Below, in pieces: positions 301 through 8,160 of a stretch of DNA of 64,000 nucleotides; the stretch's first letter is position 1, and each line of letters begins with the position of its first letter. The notes under the pieces are model-generated. The model was given only the letters and a program-made list of their open reading frames with translations. It was not told where the DNA came from and made no database searches. Position numbers and translations under genes: made by a program. Source of the DNA: Chryseobacterium aurantiacum (GTDB lineage Bacteria > Bacteroidota > Bacteroidia > Flavobacteriales > Weeksellaceae); assembly GCF_003020585.1 (NCBI RefSeq), contig NZ_PXUE01000001.1:1-64000 (forward strand), given 5' to 3'.

Positions 301-870
301 TTAGTTAGGGCCTATGGTGAAAACTAATTTGGCATTATAGCTTGTAGCAGGAATTACTACGGAAACTCCGCTTATTTGCAGCTGGGTATTAATGCCCGAA
401 AAAGATACACTATTGCCAAGTCCTAGAACTCCGGCGAAATTAATGGTTAAAAATGTTGCATCTACTCCTTGAGGAATTTCTATATAGGTAGTTCCTCCAT
501 TGATGGTAGCACTACAAAGAACACAGACTCCGCCTATACTTGTACTTCCACCGCTTCTTTTTGCATAAAGACGCAATGAGTTATTCCAGGCAGTAGGAAT
601 ATAGTGCATGCTGATCTTAGCAGCTCCACCGGAAAGCAGATTTAGAAATGATCCGGGTAATAACCCAGAAAGTGTTAATAAAGTATCACTGCTTTGGTAG
701 GTCCCTGCATAATTGGTCCCTGCTTCGGTAATAGCAGGGACACTTACGACCCAGTTACTTCCACTAATATTTAATGTTTGCGCTTCCATGCAACTACTCA
801 TTATTAAAGGAATAATGTATAGATGTTTTTTTAGGAGTATTTTTTTGAGAAAGCGACTATTGATCTTCAT
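301..870 (-). CDS. Small secreted subunit-like protein C of the chaperone-usher-like operon
   Basis: This 189-residue protein has a positively charged, hydrophobic N-terminus (about residues 1-31) that reads as an export signal. It contains MSSC, so a lipoprotein signal is possible but the spacing is unusual. The mature part is rich in Gly, Ser, Thr and short beta-strand patterns, with two nearby cysteines (GVCVLC) that could form a disulfide. It shares a TEAG tetrapeptide with the two other small proteins of the operon (880-1410 and 5048-5626) but is otherwise diverged. It is the last gene, starting 9 nt after the preceding stop, so it is surely cotranscribed. I do not recognise a named family. 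A minor or tip subunit of a surface structure is an inference from context. Confidence 0.75.
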   Translation of the reverse strand: MKINSRFLKKILLKKHLYIIPLIMSSCMEAQTLNISGSNWVVSVPAITEAGTNYAGTYQSSDTLLTLSGLLPGSFLNLLSGGAAKISMHYIPTAWNNSLRLYAKRSGGSTSIGGVCVLCSATINGGTTYIEIPQGVDATFLTINFAGVLGLGNSVSFSGINTQLQISGVSVVIPATSYNAKLVFTIGPN

Positions 871-879
871 ATTTCAAAT

Positions 880-1410
880 TTATTCTGTAATGGTGTAAGT
901 AATGGTAACTACTGTATTGGTTTGGGCTGTTATATTATTATAAGAGCCGGGAACCAGAGAAATGGTGATATTATGCCCATTATTGACTCCGTTTCCGGTA
1001 TAAGCACCTCCTATACCACTGATGATTGTTATAGGCGTAGTAGTAAGGGTTACCTGCCCTGAGGAAGATCCTAAAGTTCCACCTCCTGCTCCTGAAGCTG
1101 CTGCGGCTTGCAACCTTATATTAACTCCAGGAACGAGTGGATTAACGGTTACTGCTGCGGTAATTCTTCTGGTAGCTCCTGATGGGGCAATAGCTGATGT
1201 ATAATTAATCCATTTTGTGGTATTGGGTGTTGGATTAACAAGAGCTCTTCCCGCTTCTGTGGGCGCTGTGAAGCTTAGGCTAATATTTCCTGAAGGTTCA
1301 ATATCCATTAAAGTAACAACGGGTAATGTTATAGACGGAGTGGTCTGGGAATATAGTAGTCCAGATAAGAGAAGATATGTTATTAATAGTATGGAGCGGA
1401 TCAACATCAT
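880..1410 (-). CDS. Small secreted subunit-like protein B, paralogue of 5048-5626
   Basis: The protein has 176 residues with a clear signal peptide (about 1-21, ending LLYSQ). The mature domain is all-beta in pattern. It begins with an ITLPVVTLMDIEP stretch, then FTAPTEAG, an NTTKWINYTS segment, a Gly/Ala-rich middle, the motif YTGNGVNNGHN, and an alternating hydrophobic C-terminal strand (VVTITYTI). All these blocks are matched in the same order by the protein at 5048-5626, so the two are paralogues. Its start overlaps the stop of the barrel gene upstream by 4 nt (ATGA), which indicates translational coupling. The C-terminal strand and size resemble pilin-type subunits assembled by donor-strand exchange, but this is an inference. 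No family name can be given from the sequence alone. Confidence 0.8.
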   Translation of the reverse strand: MMLIRSILLITYLLLSGLLYSQTTPSITLPVVTLMDIEPSGNISLSFTAPTEAGRALVNPTPNTTKWINYTSAIAPSGATRRITAAVTVNPLVPGVNIRLQAAAASGAGGGTLGSSSGQVTLTTTPITIISGIGGAYTGNGVNNGHNITISLVPGSYNNITAQTNTVVTITYTITE

Positions 1411-4142
1411 TTCTGTTTTTTTATTTCATTATATCCTACTTTTAAAGTTTCCTGCTGATATTTAATTTCAGTTTGCTGTTTTACAATATTGATATTTAAT
1501 TTTTTTATTTCTTCCGGCTTTAGAGTAAACTGAAACTGATTGGTTGAAATTTTATACCGCTTGTCTAAACCATTTCTATAAATTTTCACTGTCCAATCTC
1601 CAGGGCGGAGATAAGTAAAATCAAAATCCTCTCCTATAAAACAAATTTTACGATAGGTTTGTTCACCACTTATAGCCTCTATAATAATGCTTTCCTTTTT
1701 TCTTTTTTGAATAGAATTAATCTGATCATTTTCTACAGGTTCTGTAAATTGGATATGTCCCTGTATCTTAGCTGCTCTAGTCAGGCCGAAGTTAAAGATA
1801 TTTTCCTTATGATGAAGCGAAACTGATGCGGGCAATGCTACCGTTGGGATATCATTGATTTCGGTAGTTGACCGGTCCATTTCAAGATAATAATCACCAG
1901 GTGTAATATTTTTAAAGATGAAGTTTCCATCCTTATCAGTTATGGTAAGGTGGCTTCCGAGCATGAGCTTTACTTCTGATATTTTCTTCACGCCCATATT
2001 ACCGATGTTTCCTGATAATGTAGTATACTCCGCAATTTTCTGTACAGGGACATTTAAACGCAATGTATAGCGCAGTGAGAATATAAAGTCCTTATTGGCA
2101 AGATCACCTCTTTGGAGGGTGTAACGTCCGGATATATCAAACTCATGTCCAGGGAAAAGCTGTTGATGAAAAAGAAGCTCAAGAAGATTTCTATCCTTGA
2201 AATAATACTCCGGCATATAGTTATTCTGATAAAGGAAACTAAGATATGTTTTTGGTGAAAAATGACTTATAATGTTTGCACCATAATAGACTTGCCTTTG
2301 ATTTTTCAGTTGATATCTTGAAGTCACGGCATAGCTTCCATATAAATTGAATGATGTTTTAAACTTTTCAAATCCAATATTGGCCGTATATAATCTGGAA
2401 GTTCCTGAAAATCCAGTCAGATAATTATCTGTTTTTCCCAGCTGACCTTCCACGTTGATCTGAAAATTTCCAATTTTTTGATTGATGGCCAATCTGTAAA
2501 AACGCTCATCATAGTCAAACTGCTTGGGCTCCAAACGGTCCTGATACTTTTGATAACCGCTATAAAGCATAACAGTACCTTTACTCGTGTAGGAATACTG
2601 AATACCATATTGCAAAAATTTTCTATACGGAGCAGCAAGCAGTAAGGTATCTCTTTCAAAGTTTTTAGCATCCTGAACAAAGTTGGCAGTAATATTAAGT
2701 CTCTTTGAAATCCTATATTGAAGTCCTCCGTTAAATGTACTTGTATTGGTAAAATATCCTGCAAATTCAGGGCTGGATCTCATATACATCACATTTCCAT
2801 TTAATCTTTCAAAATTAGCCTGCGCCTGAATCATATAGGCAGTTCCCTCCGTTTTATTGGTTTTACTATAGGATACCTCCCCTAAAAGATTCAGGTTTTT
2901 AGATATCTGGAATTTTCCTGTTAGGTAAGGCAAGTGTGCATTGGAATCTAATCTTGAAATGGCAAAGACATTTTCCTCCTTTCTTGGTATTTTGTATAAA
3001 TATCCAGCTGTGATTTCTGATTCCTTTTTTATTTTAAATTTTGAATAGACATTAAACTCATCTTTGATATCTCGAAAAAATCTTGGATGATTATAAAAAC
3101 CACCAATACTTACTTTATTTATATCAAATCGCACCTCCGCTCCACGTCCATACCTTGAATATTCAGTCAGAAAAGATGAAGAATAGGTTTTGTCACCTAA
3201 ATGGATAAGAAAATGATCTCTCTTGTAGTTTACAAAATATTCTTCATATTGAGTAAAAGAACTGTATTCGACTGGGTTTTTAGTGGCAACATGAAATTCT
3301 ATTTGTCCTTTATTGTTTTTATCCAGACTTCCTTTACCGTAAATTTCACCTTGAAAACCGTCATTATAATCTCCTCTGTTTCTCATTCCTATGAATGCCA
3401 ATGAAGCTGAAACAGGTAATCTATGGTAGATGTCATCCTCAGACGGTTGGATAGATATTACCTTTACACTTGCATAGGCCGTTTCACTTTCCTTTGGATC
3501 ATCCGAAGAATAAACAGTTAAGTTAAGGTTTTGAAACTCGTTTTTCCCTAATTGAGGGTCGGTTTTTCGGGAGATTAATATTTGCTTTGTTTCTCCTGGA
3601 GATAAGAAAATTTCCGAATCCTGATCTATGATGGCATTCTTACTTTCCAGGATAAGTTTTTCCGGAATGTTTCCATTATTTTTAATGAGAAAATTAGCTT
3701 TAATGGTTTCGCCGGCTTTTACAAATTCCGGTGAATTCAAAGCCGTGAGAGAAATATTTCGATTTCCGGAAACAGTAACCTTTGAAATTTTTGTAAAGGA
3801 AATTCCATTGTTTCTGTCTGTAATATTCAATGTTACAGTATAGGTACCTTGGCTTGTTTCTGTTGCAATACGCAGAGGAACCAGATATACTGATGTTTCG
3901 TGAGGGGCAATTTGGAATTCTCCTTTTGTTAAAATGGGTAGAATCTGTGGATTTGAGGTACTCACTGAAATATCATAAGTTCTGTTTTCAGCTGAATTAT
4001 TTTCTAATGTGAATGGGATAGAAGTAGACATTCCCGGTAATAAACTATCTTTTTTACTAATCAATCGGTTAGATTGTTGTTGAGAAAAAATAAATATCGG
4101 GAATAATGATAGAATAATAAAGAAAGTCCAAGTTCTAATCAT
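1407..4142 (-). CDS. Outer-membrane usher-like beta-barrel protein with Ig-like ends
   Basis: This 911-residue protein has a signal peptide (about 1-20). Residues about 20-235 look like two Ig-fold domains of the NEW3 or COG1470 kind. Residues about 240-690 show dense alternating amphipathic strands with aromatic girdle residues, typical of an outer-membrane barrel. About 700-790 is a carboxypeptidase-regulatory-like beta-sandwich (DKDGNFIFKNITPGDYYLEM), and a second sandwich follows to the end. Length and order of parts resemble fimbrial ushers, whose barrel is flanked by small beta domains, although I see no classical usher signature. Its start overlaps the stop of the chaperone-like gene by 8 nt, and its end overlaps the next subunit gene by 4 nt. 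I propose it exports or anchors the small subunits. A plain barrel protein of other function remains possible. Confidence 0.8.
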   Translation of the reverse strand: MIRTWTFFIILSLFPIFIFSQQQSNRLISKKDSLLPGMSTSIPFTLENNSAENRTYDISVSTSNPQILPILTKGEFQIAPHETSVYLVPLRIATETSQGTYTVTLNITDRNNGISFTKISKVTVSGNRNISLTALNSPEFVKAGETIKANFLIKNNGNIPEKLILESKNAIIDQDSEIFLSPGETKQILISRKTDPQLGKNEFQNLNLTVYSSDDPKESETAYASVKVISIQPSEDDIYHRLPVSASLAFIGMRNRGDYNDGFQGEIYGKGSLDKNNKGQIEFHVATKNPVEYSSFTQYEEYFVNYKRDHFLIHLGDKTYSSSFLTEYSRYGRGAEVRFDINKVSIGGFYNHPRFFRDIKDEFNVYSKFKIKKESEITAGYLYKIPRKEENVFAISRLDSNAHLPYLTGKFQISKNLNLLGEVSYSKTNKTEGTAYMIQAQANFERLNGNVMYMRSSPEFAGYFTNTSTFNGGLQYRISKRLNITANFVQDAKNFERDTLLLAAPYRKFLQYGIQYSYTSKGTVMLYSGYQKYQDRLEPKQFDYDERFYRLAINQKIGNFQINVEGQLGKTDNYLTGFSGTSRLYTANIGFEKFKTSFNLYGSYAVTSRYQLKNQRQVYYGANIISHFSPKTYLSFLYQNNYMPEYYFKDRNLLELLFHQQLFPGHEFDISGRYTLQRGDLANKDFIFSLRYTLRLNVPVQKIAEYTTLSGNIGNMGVKKISEVKLMLGSHLTITDKDGNFIFKNITPGDYYLEMDRSTTEINDIPTVALPASVSLHHKENIFNFGLTRAAKIQGHIQFTEPVENDQINSIQKRKKESIIIEAISGEQTYRKICFIGEDFDFTYLRPGDWTVKIYRNGLDKRYKISTNQFQFTLKPEEIKKLNINIVKQQTEIKYQQETLKVGYNEIKKQK

Positions 4143-4944
4143 TTTTTACTTCTAGTTCCACATTGAGAGCAAATGCGTTCTCCTCTTCATCAGTTGCTAT
4201 TATTGATGCTTTATATTTTTCTGGAGGTACTTTACTGATATCAATATAAAATGTTTTGGAAGTATTGGGCAGCAATCCCATTGTTAAACTTGAATAAGTA
4301 CCTAACTTTTCACCGGTTTTACGATTATAGATTTCAATGGATGTGGTGGGTTTACAATAAAGATTACCATTGTTGGCTATGGCAATCATTAGAGTTTGCT
4401 TTCCCTCTTGCTTTTCTATTTTTACGCTTTCAAACTTAAGAATTGGCTTGGCTTTTTCTGTTTCGAAATCGGTAATAACCTGTATTGCATAACGTATAAC
4501 AGAAGTAATATTCACTCCTTGCTTATTATCACTAGGCTTAATGTCTTCCACAGGTTCTACAATAATTACACTCCAGTAGCTTCCAGGATCCATTGCCTGA
4601 TTAGGAACAGTAATTTCATAAAACACCTCTGTTTTTTCATTACCTTTAAGCGTAATCAGGTTGGTATTAAGTTTAACCCATTCTCCGTTAGTACGTTTGT
4701 TGGTATTCAGCGTTGTATAATTGATTGTTCCGTCAGCCTGGTAGGTGAAATCCTGTAAAAACAATTTTACAGTTTGGGGAGTTTTGCTTGTATTTTCAAT
4801 GGCAACTTTTCCTTTGTAGACTTTTCCTGTTTCAATTTTGTAAGAATGCGTAAGCCCGTTGAGAACCACAATGCCGGCATGTAAAAAGCTGAACTGCAAA
4901 ATCACGGTGATCAAAAGAAGAATACGCTTTATCATCATCATCAT
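4135..4944 (-). CDS. Periplasmic two-domain Ig-fold protein, chaperone-like
   Basis: The 269-residue protein begins MMMMIKRILLL, so the exact start is uncertain by up to three codons. A signal peptide ends near residue 23. The rest reads as two consecutive Ig-like sandwiches of about 120 residues each. The first (about 28-145) has the patterns of PapD-type chaperones and of the DUF916 domain of WxL-associated proteins: KGKVAIENTSKTPQTVKLFLQD, a GEWVKL segment, then FYEITVPNQAMDPGSYWSVIIVE. The second (about 160-267) has IAIANNGNLYCKP and a conserved-looking LPNTSKTF. It lies between the first subunit gene and the barrel gene, overlapping the latter by 8 nt. Holding subunits before export is the natural inference. 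Direct homology to PapD cannot be claimed from reading alone. Confidence 0.8.
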   Translation of the reverse strand: MMMMIKRILLLITVILQFSFLHAGIVVLNGLTHSYKIETGKVYKGKVAIENTSKTPQTVKLFLQDFTYQADGTINYTTLNTNKRTNGEWVKLNTNLITLKGNEKTEVFYEITVPNQAMDPGSYWSVIIVEPVEDIKPSDNKQGVNITSVIRYAIQVITDFETEKAKPILKFESVKIEKQEGKQTLMIAIANNGNLYCKPTTSIEIYNRKTGEKLGTYSSLTMGLLPNTSKTFYIDISKVPPEKYKASIIATDEEENAFALNVELEVKND

Positions 4945-4976
4945 TATATAAAGTTTGGAGTTTAATCATTAATAAT

Positions 4977-5017
4977 ACAAAACCAGGAAGAAACTGAATA
5001 TCAGCTTCTTCTTGTTT
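4977..5017 (-). terminator. Hairpin between subunit A and chaperone gene, likely attenuator
   Basis: On the minus strand an AGAAGCTGA-type arm (complement of about 5001-5016) pairs across a short loop with the complement of about 4981-4997. The stem is about 11 bp with one G-U pair and is followed by TTTTG. It lies after the first gene of the operon and before the chaperone-like gene, where a partial terminator would give more subunit A than assembly proteins. Confidence 0.55.
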
Positions 5018-5047
5018 TTGAATTCAGAAAAGAATTTTATTTAAATT

Positions 5048-5626
5048 CTAATTATCTGATATTGTATACGTAACGGTAGCTACTGTAGTGGCTGTTGCCT
5101 GTAAATCTGCATAAGCTGCTACCCCTCCAGGGCCGCTTCCTGCAGCAAGAGCGTACGTAAGGTTGTGTCCATTGTTGGCACCATTTCCTGTATAAGCACT
5201 CCCAATACCTGAAATAATAGTCTGGTCGGCAGCACTTAAAGTCAACAGACCTGCAGACGTTCCTAATGTACCTGCACCAGATCCTGTAGCTGCAGCGGCA
5301 GTTACGTGAAGATCAACTCCGGGAATGATAGCGTTCATTTTTACACTTACATTACGGGTGGGATCTGCAACAGATTTGATGGAAGAATAATTAAGCCATA
5401 GAGTTGTGTTAGCCGTAGCCGGAATAATAGGATTACCTGCCTCTGTAGGAGCTGTAAATCCAAGAGTAATATTTTTTGTGGCAGCGGGTTCAATATCTAC
5501 CAAAGCAACTTCAGGGATAGAAATTGTGACTGTATGGTTGTCTGTATTAGTATCCTGTGCACTTAAATTAGTGGATACAGCAACTGCAAATAGGGACATT
5601 GCAATCGTTAAGTTTAATTTTTTCAT
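5048..5626 (-). CDS. Secreted subunit-like protein A, first gene of the chaperone-usher-like operon
   Basis: The protein has 192 residues with a standard signal peptide (about 1-23, ending NLSAQ). The mature part is rich in Ala, Gly, Thr and Asn, with no cysteine. It shares ordered blocks with 880-1410: a VTISIPEVALVDIEP start, FTAPTEAG, an NTTLWLNYSS segment, YTGNGANNGHN, and a terminal TVTYTI strand. As the promoter-proximal gene followed by a hairpin, it is the best candidate for the abundant structural subunit. No catalytic motif is visible. It resembles the size and composition of pilin or spore-coat-U-like subunits, but I cannot assign it to a family by eye. A secreted adhesin that does not polymerise is an alternative. 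Confidence 0.8.
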   Translation of the reverse strand: MKKLNLTIAMSLFAVAVSTNLSAQDTNTDNHTVTISIPEVALVDIEPAATKNITLGFTAPTEAGNPIIPATANTTLWLNYSSIKSVADPTRNVSVKMNAIIPGVDLHVTAAAATGSGAGTLGTSAGLLTLSAADQTIISGIGSAYTGNGANNGHNLTYALAAGSGPGGVAAYADLQATATTVATVTYTISDN

Positions 5627-5811: not shown

Positions 5812-8160
5812 CTATGCCCAATGAGGATCCGAAACAGAAACTTTACCCGTTTCTATTCTGCCTGCAAAATGCCATATGTGATTTTCAAGGGTTATTTTAA
5901 GATCATACCAGCCCTTGTATTTGCTAAGATCAATAATTATTTTATCCTCAGGCTTTTTTGTAGATATCATTTTTTTACTTTTTTCATACCCGTTTTCCAG
6001 AGTTAGATTGACATTGCTTTCTTTATGGTTTTTAAAAACTAATTCAATCTGACTTTTTGAACTGTTATTAATAAGAATCACCTCAACCTCTGGTTTTTTG
6101 GATCCCTTGAATTTTCGGAAAAAGCCATTAGGCCCAAACACTTCGTAATCATATGTTCCGGATTGTATCACAGGGTGTGATAATTCCTGCTTTGAATATA
6201 ATGCATAGGAAAAATAATAATTATTACTATTCAATTGGGTTCTGTCATAAAGATGAAGAGGAACTCCATTTTCCTTTACATTGGTCATCGTGATCTTATC
6301 TCCACTTAAATTCACATAAAAATCATAGGGAAGTGGATTGGAGGGTTTCATTCCCTTTTCCTGAATATCAAGAAGACTGTTATTCAGTTCATTTTCAGAA
6401 TACCATTTCAGTTGAGGAACAGGCTTGTTTTTGGCAGCATTAATGGTTTTAGCAAAATCCTTTTGATCCAGATAATCCATTTTTGGAGCTTTGGCATTGG
6501 GTAGGTTGAAAGCAGAAGTCAGATCTCCGCAAATAGCTCTTCTCCACTCACTGATAGTATCTACATGAACATTTTTATTAAACTTCTTCATGATAAATTT
6601 TTCAAGAAACTGCAGCACAGAGGTATGATCCGAAACTTCAGAGTTAACAAAACCTCCCTTGGTCCACGGAGAAGCAATAATCATTGGAACCCTGTAACCA
6701 AGGCCAACGGTTCCTTCTGCTTTTTCATAATCCTTTAATGTAGGATCGGACATATATTCCTGAGACTTGTCAACGTATTCAACCCCTTCTTTTCCATTCA
6801 TATCAACGGGTTGGCTCGGGTTTAATGGTGGGGCAAAAGGGATTACATGGTCAAAATAGCCATCATTTTCATCATAATTGATAATAAAAATTGTTTTTTT
6901 CCAGGTTTCAGGGTCCTTGGTCAGAATATTTAAAACCTCAGAAATATACCATGCTCCATACCAAGGAGAACCAGGATGATCCGAGAAATGTTCAGGGGCT
7001 ACCAGCCAGGAAACCAAAGGAAGTTTTTTCTCTTCCACATCCTTACGGAACTGAAACAATACATCTCCTTTCGGAACCACCAGCCTTTCTCCGTTTTCAT
7101 CTTTACCAATTTCCAGATGATGATAATCGGGATCATTTGAATTGGTTGTGAACGCCTTTTCGTGGAGATTTTTCTCCAGTTGTGATAATTTTGAATAATT
7201 ATCAGGATGATATGTTACCTGATCTTCCTGTAGTTCAGTAATGAGCGCTTCCAGTCTTTCTTTTCGGCTAGGGTTTTTTATGATTTCCTGTTTCAGGGAA
7301 GCGATCATTTTGGGAATATTCTCGTAATACCCCTTTGAAAATTTTACATTATATTTTGAAAACCATTCAATCGGGTTATCTGTAAAGTTGCTCAGCCATG
7401 CTTCCTGCTCTCCGGACATTCCTTTTGGCAGGCTGATTTCATTCTGATAAATGCGCCATGATACATTTTTTTCCTCTAAAATTTCAGGAAAACTCTTCCA
7501 TTTTGCCTGTCTGGCTTTATCATAATCAATGTCATCATTCACAACATTGGCTTTTGATTTACCGTTTTGCTGTTCTCTTAAGGTTCCGGACCAAAGAAAT
7601 AATCTGTTAGGAGTAGTCCCCGTAAGTGAAGAACAGAAATATTGATCAAATATGGTAAAGGCATCTGCCATTTGATAATAAAAAGGAAGATCTTCGCGGT
7701 TGTAATAGCCTAGAGTAAGGGGAATATTTTTATAATCCTTATTTCCTGAAGCTTTTGCCTGAAGCCATTGGTCATATTTTCCTTTATTCAATGCGTGTTG
7801 CTGGTTTTCCCAGGAATGAGGAAGTGAGCTCATCCATGTAGATTTAGTATTTCTAAGATCCAGGCGAGCCGGGGAAGCATATTTTCCGCTATTTTCCTTT
7901 TGAAAGAACACAGAATGCCCATCCTGTTTTACAAAAGCTCTTTTATCTAAAAAACCTCTTACTCCTTTTAAAGCACCAAAGGCATGATCAAATGAGCGGT
8001 TTTCCTGCATTAGGATAACTACATGCTCAGCATCATAAAAAGTAGATTGTGCGGCCGGATCAATAGCTAAGGCCTTTAAAATTGCAGGATGAAGAACACC
8101 TGAAGTTCCTAATCCGGCTAATAAAATACTTGATTTTTCTAAAAATTCTCTTCTGTCCAT
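5812..8160 (-). CDS. Phosphocholine-specific phospholipase C, Tat-exported
   Basis: This enzyme hydrolyses phosphatidylcholine-type lipids to diacylglycerol and phosphocholine outside the cytoplasm. The 782-residue protein starts with a twin-arginine signal (MDRREFLEKSSILLAGLG), as expected for the folded, metal-dependent family. The phosphoesterase domain (about 45-560) shows EHVVILMQENRSFDHAFG near the start, GTTPNRLFLWSGT, NYDENDGYFDHV and SDHTSVLQF. These are the hallmarks of the bacterial phospholipase C/acid phosphatase AcpA superfamily. Two small beta-rich domains follow (about 600-690 and 700-775), matching the C-terminal DUF756 repeats of the family. The gene is last in a SusC-SusD-phospholipase operon, 82 bp after SusD. 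Its products could be imported or further dephosphorylated by enzymes encoded downstream. Length fits the family. Confidence 0.93.
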   Translation of the reverse strand: MDRREFLEKSSILLAGLGTSGVLHPAILKALAIDPAAQSTFYDAEHVVILMQENRSFDHAFGALKGVRGFLDKRAFVKQDGHSVFFQKENSGKYASPARLDLRNTKSTWMSSLPHSWENQQHALNKGKYDQWLQAKASGNKDYKNIPLTLGYYNREDLPFYYQMADAFTIFDQYFCSSLTGTTPNRLFLWSGTLREQQNGKSKANVVNDDIDYDKARQAKWKSFPEILEEKNVSWRIYQNEISLPKGMSGEQEAWLSNFTDNPIEWFSKYNVKFSKGYYENIPKMIASLKQEIIKNPSRKERLEALITELQEDQVTYHPDNYSKLSQLEKNLHEKAFTTNSNDPDYHHLEIGKDENGERLVVPKGDVLFQFRKDVEEKKLPLVSWLVAPEHFSDHPGSPWYGAWYISEVLNILTKDPETWKKTIFIINYDENDGYFDHVIPFAPPLNPSQPVDMNGKEGVEYVDKSQEYMSDPTLKDYEKAEGTVGLGYRVPMIIASPWTKGGFVNSEVSDHTSVLQFLEKFIMKKFNKNVHVDTISEWRRAICGDLTSAFNLPNAKAPKMDYLDQKDFAKTINAAKNKPVPQLKWYSENELNNSLLDIQEKGMKPSNPLPYDFYVNLSGDKITMTNVKENGVPLHLYDRTQLNSNNYYFSYALYSKQELSHPVIQSGTYDYEVFGPNGFFRKFKGSKKPEVEVILINNSSKSQIELVFKNHKESNVNLTLENGYEKSKKMISTKKPEDKIIIDLSKYKGWYDLKITLENHIWHFAGRIETGKVSVSDPHWA

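Follow-up and report, generated by a model that had tools for sequence, protein, structure and literature searches.

The described systems that stand closest to the operon considered here are the classical chaperone-usher pili, the WxL gene clusters of Gram-positive bacteria, and the type V (FimA/Mfa1) pili of Bacteroidia. In the chaperones of the first, a proline in strand D1 is the sole residue that is invariant across the superfamily, and two conserved basic residues hold the C-terminal carboxylate of the subunit (in the sections of PMC4654587 consulted). For the second, which are defined by the presence of at least two WxL-domain proteins, AlphaFold2 complexes place a strand of the Gram-positive WxLIP in a gap of the WxL domain, where it completes the sandwich (in the sections of PMC10599100 consulted; a term search of the paper returned no mention of ‘chaperone’ or ‘usher’); for the third, a donor-strand mechanism is named in the title of the paper on the structure of Mfa4 (PMC4789730). 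The present analysis concerns five genes near the start of a 64,000-nucleotide stretch of DNA from Chryseobacterium aurantiacum (Bacteroidota; contig NZ_PXUE01000001.1, positions 1 to 64,000; hereafter ‘the window’). These genes probably encode a diverged chaperone-usher pathway that would build a surface fibre from small secreted subunits: by descent the operon most likely represents a distant offshoot of the chaperone-usher systems, and there is a good probability that it also works like one.

All five open reading frames (ORFs) lie on the minus strand within positions 301-5626. The first encodes a 192-residue protein (‘subunit 1’, 5048-5626) with a signal-peptide-like start, an alternating-hydrophobic N-terminal segment and a beta-sandwich model, which is likely the major (‘shaft’) subunit. 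It is followed by genes for a 269-residue, chaperone-like periplasmic protein with two immunoglobulin (Ig) domains (4135-4944) and for a 911-residue, usher-like outer-membrane protein (1407-4142), and then by those for ‘subunit 2’ (176 residues, 880-1410), a paralogue that is 47% identical to subunit 1 in alignment and keeps its place in the order, and for ‘subunit 3’ (189 residues, 301-870), the most variable gene of the five. The chaperone and barrel genes overlap by 8 nucleotides (nt; 4135-4142) and those for the barrel and subunit 2 by 4 nt (1407-1410), while 9 nt separate subunits 2 and 3 and 103 nt separate subunit 1 from the chaperone gene; the original prediction, of five minus-strand genes with four of them overlapping or 9 nt apart, was accurate in its positions, overlaps and gap. 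The window begins where the contig does, and the region downstream of subunit 3 falls outside the available sequence.

Conservation of the order subunit, chaperone, barrel, subunits in related genomes had been set beforehand as a point on which the prediction could fail. The full five-gene order was found in 76 of 80 loci from named genomes (nearly all of them Chryseobacterium, plus one Elizabethkingia miricola and one Weeksellaceae bacterium); all 76 also keep an overlap of exactly 8 nt between chaperone and barrel, and the arrangement is thus not a product of chance. Among the four deviating loci, two have no detected subunit 1; in a third, a single long ORF stands where subunits 2 and 3 would be expected, and in the last the fourth gene scores higher as subunit 1. 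Further loci from congeners display all five genes in order in 15 of 16 cases, the sixteenth (L043) showing the first three; barrel relatives in Chryseobacterium share 93% identity. Order and overlap are kept in a locus from a different family than that of the window (L193), and of two loci from the same order, one (L048) has all five genes in sequence at 26-47% identity and the other (L049) starts near a contig end with the chaperone. In a survey of 59 genomes (the window's own, 35 from the same genus and 23 from the same order), the 269-residue protein was present in 38: its own genome, every one of the 35 congeners and 2 of the 23 others. A close type was found in 33 of the 35 congeners (62-89% identical, one match covering 140 residues only), and the remaining two have distant types only.

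The chaperone-like protein carries DUF916 and DUF3324 in the order typical of WxLIP proteins. Both Pfam matches exceed their cut-offs (PF11797 at 41.1 bits against 28.9; PF06030 at 27.5 bits against 27.3), the latter by just 0.2 bits. A profile of eight orthologues matches the solved structure of EfmWxLIP1 (PDB 9i25_C/9i1y_A; E 2.5e-11) across positions 43-263 of 266, and because of this homology the assignment of two Ig domains, as originally predicted, can be regarded as secure at the level of sequence comparison. The strand insertion proposed for the Gram-positive WxLIP follows the same principle as strand donation by a pilus chaperone.

Two sister types of the window operon (‘type A’) occur in the genus. 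Type B (L050-L061) consists of one subunit ORF (173-205 residues), a chaperone, a protein of about 342 residues and a barrel of about 932 residues; type C (L062-L067) has between two and five subunit ORFs in tandem, each of about 181 residues (as counted within the stretches retrieved), a chaperone, a barrel of about 934 residues and a protein of about 477 residues. The tandem subunit genes that precede the type C chaperone could represent a gene-amplification array. Profile comparisons unite the chaperones of type A with those of types B (98.0%, E 1.8e-13) and C (96.3%, E 1.8e-9), and likewise the barrels (98.3%, E 2.5e-14, and 91.1%, E 1e-6, respectively), against barrel controls of 0.16-0.62% for reversed profiles and 0.4-8% for a TonB-type barrel. 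Tip adhesins such as FimH combine an extra N-terminal part with a pilin domain that lacks a donor strand. The 342-residue protein of type B and the 477-residue protein of type C appear, by analogy, to be built in this way: the C-terminal domain of each is a homologue of the subunits (95.8%, E 6.5e-9, and 97.1%, E 6.9e-11), and in both the match begins past the subunits' N-terminal segment.

The strongest tie between these chaperones and those of the PapD type was obtained when the sister types were pooled. A profile of 15 Bacteroidota chaperones (types A, B and C) and one of eight pilus chaperones from E. coli K-12 match at 94.7% (E 6.1e-8), in an alignment of 205 columns that takes in both domains. 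In controls, the K-12 chaperones matched the barrel's own Ig pair at 14.1% and 4.7% and the reversed profile at 0.16%, and the best of 30 column shuffles scored 19.4 as compared to 58.8 for the real alignment. The K-12 set has an invariant proline (P88); type B chaperones, in addition, align an arginine (Arg35) and a lysine (Lys161), both retained in all seven sequences, with an arginine and a lysine of K-12, presumably the anchor pair of PapD numbering. Several results weigh on the other side. Between the pooled chaperones and the Ig pair of the barrel there is a match of 90-97%, so that part of the signal is a general likeness among Ig domains. The type A profile alone reaches the K-12 chaperones at 20.7% only; the residue aligned with the invariant proline in the window type is a different one (a result that depends on the alignment), and the type A chaperone lacks both basic residues at the aligned anchor positions. 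PapD_N (PF00345) was absent from the 269-residue protein in a Pfam scan and above its cut-off nowhere in the genome, the type B and type C chaperone profiles returned no WxLIP or PapD match in the PDB, and scans with NCBIfam gave nothing useful.

The same WxLIP assignment lends itself to a different explanation, in which a WxLIP homologue stabilizes one or two subunits on the barrel as an adhesive patch, in a WxL-like complex that forms no polymer. Beyond the Pfam cut-offs that the chaperone exceeds, the annotation of one subunit-1 homologue (P0233) in its source as a ‘WxL domain-containing protein’ points in this direction. Nevertheless this explanation is unlikely, given that a search of all three subunits with Pfam (E up to 1) found no WxL domain, so that the two or more WxL-domain proteins of a WxL cluster are lacking; that as many as five similar tandem subunits in type C suggest a stock for polymerization; that the window chaperone, judged by eye, does not have the C-terminal hydrophobic helix of WxLIP proteins; and that the barrel resembles ushers. 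The WxLIP label on its own would also miss most of the chaperone family, because PF11797 alone finds matches in 7 of 395 sampled genomes of the phylum (four of them over the cut-off).

The predicted model of the 911-residue protein (mean confidence, pLDDT, of 81) contains a 26-strand barrel at residues 239-702, preceded by two Ig-like domains (approximately 39-229) and followed by a beta-rich C-terminus (707-888) that was read as two sandwich domains. The barrel of FimD, for comparison, has 24 strands. When the model was searched against the PDB with Foldseek, FimD filled nine of the first ten rows, including the first eight, and upon re-alignment FimD ranked first and PapC third (366 and 356 residues aligned, with root mean square deviations of 4.8 and 5.2). 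In this predicted structure, an usher-fold outer-membrane barrel carries periplasmic domains on both its N-terminal and its C-terminal side. The barrel with Ig-like ends that had been proposed is borne out by this model, but the ‘regulatory sandwich’ proposed along with it corresponds to a CarboxypepD_reg match below threshold (21.6 bits against a cut-off of 32.3). The absence of a lumen or plug suitable for export had also been named as a result that would speak against the proposal: no gap of more than 15 residues separates consecutive strands between 239 and 702, and a plug domain is accordingly missing from the model, while its best PDB matches are nonetheless FimD.

At the level of sequence, the usher family proved harder to reach. 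PF00577 was found over its cut-off neither in the 911-residue protein nor elsewhere in the genome (an E. coli control was positive), the window-type barrel profile gave no match to the K-12 ushers, and among PDB sequences it picked up only isolated segments of Ig or sandwich type, all of them weakly (best E 7e-4). A search begun from the divergent barrel of L048 returned three proteins only, and therefore added little depth to the model. These results, together with a tie between porins and ushers on Z in the re-alignment, leave room for the idea that the protein is a porin, a receptor or a polysaccharide exporter, with the Ig proteins as accessories and the likeness to ushers as a likeness among large barrels. 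This is very improbable: FimD fills the first eight Foldseek rows, no tight alignment is longer than those with FimD and PapC, a chaperone gene and subunits go with the barrel in a fixed arrangement, and barrels in the ‘bridging’ operons described below match PF00577 weakly. As a separate observation, the barrel's N-terminal Ig pair (approximately 39-229) matches the chaperone profile at 97.2% (E 4.2e-11); the usher-like protein may carry a built-in chaperone-like module, and the similarity may stem either from duplication or from a general Ig likeness.

Across the phylum, the pooled chaperone profile matches 50 of the 395 sampled genomes and 32 of 170 genera; in four of these genomes the match is short and partial. 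Of 48 places outside the genus, 32 were retrieved by hand and inspected. An ORF of at least 850 codons lies within 2.5 kilobases and on the same strand at 26 of the 32, and 20 of those 26 match the barrel profile; in three other cases a large ORF is found on the opposite strand, with a barrel match at L202 and L211 and without one at L218. At three of the 32 places (L201, L205 and L209) no large ORF or barrel was found near the chaperone. PF00577, in turn, exceeds its cut-off in none of the 395 genomes and flags four of them below it (E 1.9e-5 to 7.4e-4); in a scan of the whole proteins, two of the four flagged barrels carry it at 20.1 and 20.7 bits (cut-off 27.1). In all four (L229-L232, in genomes G230, G336, G375 and G289), an ORF of 276-278 codons adjoins the flagged barrel. 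Of the four products, one is detected by the pooled chaperone profile (1.2e-14); the remaining three have no profile match of their own, yet are 37-48% identical to the one that does.

These four loci, joined with L214-L217, form a set of eight bridging barrels and eight bridging chaperones. The barrels match the K-12 ushers at 91.2% (E 9.8e-7) over 256 columns (reversed control, 0.2%), in an alignment that spans the first strands through the plug region. The chaperones match those of the window type at 98.65% (E 5e-16) and those of K-12 at 83.5%, and all eight retain the proline that is invariant in the superfamily. The original prediction had left the choice between an ‘independent’ and a ‘highly diverged’ pathway; because the bridging operons pair a related chaperone with an usher-alignable barrel, the latter is favoured and the former disfavoured. 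A convergent origin, in which WxLIP-like chaperones and big barrels were joined in Bacteroidota without descent from PapD and FimD, is by the same token highly unlikely, since both domains of the K-12 and pooled Bacteroidota chaperones match and the bridging barrels can be aligned with ushers through the plug region. It draws what strength it has from a window-type barrel without a plug or detectable sequence similarity to ushers, from subunits that do not match K-12 pilins, and from the fact that the link between window-type and bridging barrels is confined to a C-terminal portion of the pooled profile (95.1%, E 3.2e-8; 12-29% for the window type alone).

Several features of the bridging operons and their surroundings deserve separate mention. 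Their barrels are 994-1505 residues long, and six of the eight carry C-terminal SPOR (peptidoglycan-binding) domains over the cut-off; a small secreted neighbour of one operon is a DUF4402 protein (37.9 bits, cut-off 25.2). At L214:10699-12878, L215:1997-4356 and L217:10958-13202, the adjoining genes encode groups of proteins whose N-termini are short and hydrophobic and start with MGRxxLI or MNxGL; they recall type IV-like prepilins, and two surface-fibre systems may lie there side by side. Outside Bacteroidota, plasmid 2 of Deinococcus deserti VCD115 (L224:8393-12780) encodes a small secreted protein, a chaperone (30% identity across 91%, E 2e-27; annotated as a FimB/Mfa2 family fimbrial subunit) and a barrel-like protein of 839 residues (barrel-profile match, 1.4e-8), a trio that forms a similar kind of operon.

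In a structure search with the model of subunit 1, the first 16 of 50 rows were chaperone-usher pilus proteins, at low scores, with FimA, CfaB and PapA the nearest; such a pilin-like model offers weak support. The subunit profile gave nothing meaningful against the PDB (best E 0.058), and a K-12 pilin profile matched none of the subunit and adhesin profiles. Type A subunits resemble those of types B and C weakly (7% and 26%; 1.4% and 9.8% after removal of signal peptides). Homology of subunit 3 to subunits 1 and 2 was likewise considered, and was not supported once signal peptides were removed (0.38%). The median distance from the likely signal cleavage site to an xEAG-type motif is 37 residues in subunit 1, 32 in subunit 2 and 17 in subunit 3, and subunit 3 has a median identity of 47% among its relatives. 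Its place in the gene order, its variability and its length, taken on their own, make it a possible tip subunit.

A hairpin (4978-5020, minus strand) lies in the 103 nt that separate subunit 1 from the chaperone gene; this gap has a folding energy of -20.2 kcal/mol (z -3.6), which none of 200 shuffled sequences equalled. When the same gap was folded in 10 loci, z was -2 or lower in seven, and for its first 85 nt this was the case in 51 of 76 loci; the corresponding figures are 9 of 76 for the region upstream of the subunit 1 gene and 19 of 73 for that downstream of the subunit 3 gene. The hairpin is possibly an attenuator that gives an excess of subunit 1.

Armed with these elements, a mechanism can be sketched. 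The subunits would enter the periplasm through their Sec signal peptides, and there a beta-strand from the WxLIP-family chaperone would complete the open Ig fold of each. The resulting pairs would bind to the 911-residue protein at its Ig and C-terminal domains in the periplasm. The subunits would then cross the 26-strand barrel, each chaperone strand giving way to the N-terminal strand of the subunit that follows. Subunit 1 would form the shaft, because a hairpin lies downstream of its gene and it is highly conserved, and subunit 3 would be the tip or first-exported subunit, because it is variable and has a short N-terminus. Strand donation, export, the fibre, the roles of single subunits and the closure of a plug-free barrel are thus all steps that we infer. 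A more far-reaching reading is put forward tentatively, as one that we rate at slightly less than an even chance: the operons would constitute an undescribed Bacteroidota branch of the chaperone-usher pathway, whose chaperone links the PapD type and WxLIP as one strand-donating family, and whose plug-free usher relies for gating on the Ig or C-terminal domains that it carries in the periplasm. The clearest example of such a branch at the scale of a whole genus would be the operon of the window.

Upstream of the operon, positions 5812-8160 hold a gene for a 782-residue protein that looks like a putative phosphocholine-type phospholipase C; ORFs that start like it occupy the same place in several Chryseobacterium loci.

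Full-text literature searches, conducted outside of preprints and most subscription papers, found no such system described in Bacteroidota in the titles and abstract openings of the matches listed. If the proposed pathway is correct, chaperone-usher fibre assembly is present in that phylum in a form that is invisible to the standard usher model, which exceeds its cut-off in 0 of 395 genomes as compared to the 50 matched by the pooled chaperone profile. The WxLIP family would gain a mechanism, as strand-donating chaperones; the closure of ushers would become testable by comparing plugged with plug-free barrels; and Chryseobacterium and its relatives, including the one E. miricola locus, would possess a likely adhesive organelle.

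How, then, does the window operon compare with the systems named at the outset? With classical type 1 and P pili (FimC-FimD-FimA and PapD-PapC-PapA), it shares the order subunit, chaperone, barrel and further subunits (as in the K-12 fim operon), a chaperone of two Ig domains whose profile is similar once the sister types are pooled with it, a barrel with FimD and PapC among its best matches, and a subunit 1 model that lies nearest to FimA, CfaB and PapA. It differs in its barrel, with 26 predicted strands, no plug and two Ig-like domains on the N-terminal side, and in its chaperone, without the invariant proline or the Arg/Lys anchor; with neither PF00577 nor PapD_N above its cut-off, the system stands outside the chaperone-usher family in the strict sense. 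With Gram-positive WxL clusters, it has in common a WxLIP-family protein and small secreted partners encoded beside it; in contrast to them, it includes an outer-membrane barrel, its subunits do not match the WxL domain, and its chaperone ends soon after the second Ig domain (by eye). With type V pili it would share a surface fibre in Bacteroidota (one that is only predicted for the window operon), but a Pfam scan of the five proteins (E up to 1) gave no FimA/Mfa fimbrillin domain, no conserved lipobox was seen by eye in the subunit alignments, and a dedicated chaperone and barrel are present instead. The bridging operons (family f38; L229-L232, L214, L215 and L217) are unlike the window operon in the length and SPOR domains of their barrels, in the alignment of those barrels with ushers through the plug region, and in the proline of their chaperones; they are like it in that a homologous chaperone adjoins a large barrel, with small secreted proteins beside it in those loci for which sequence on that side is available.

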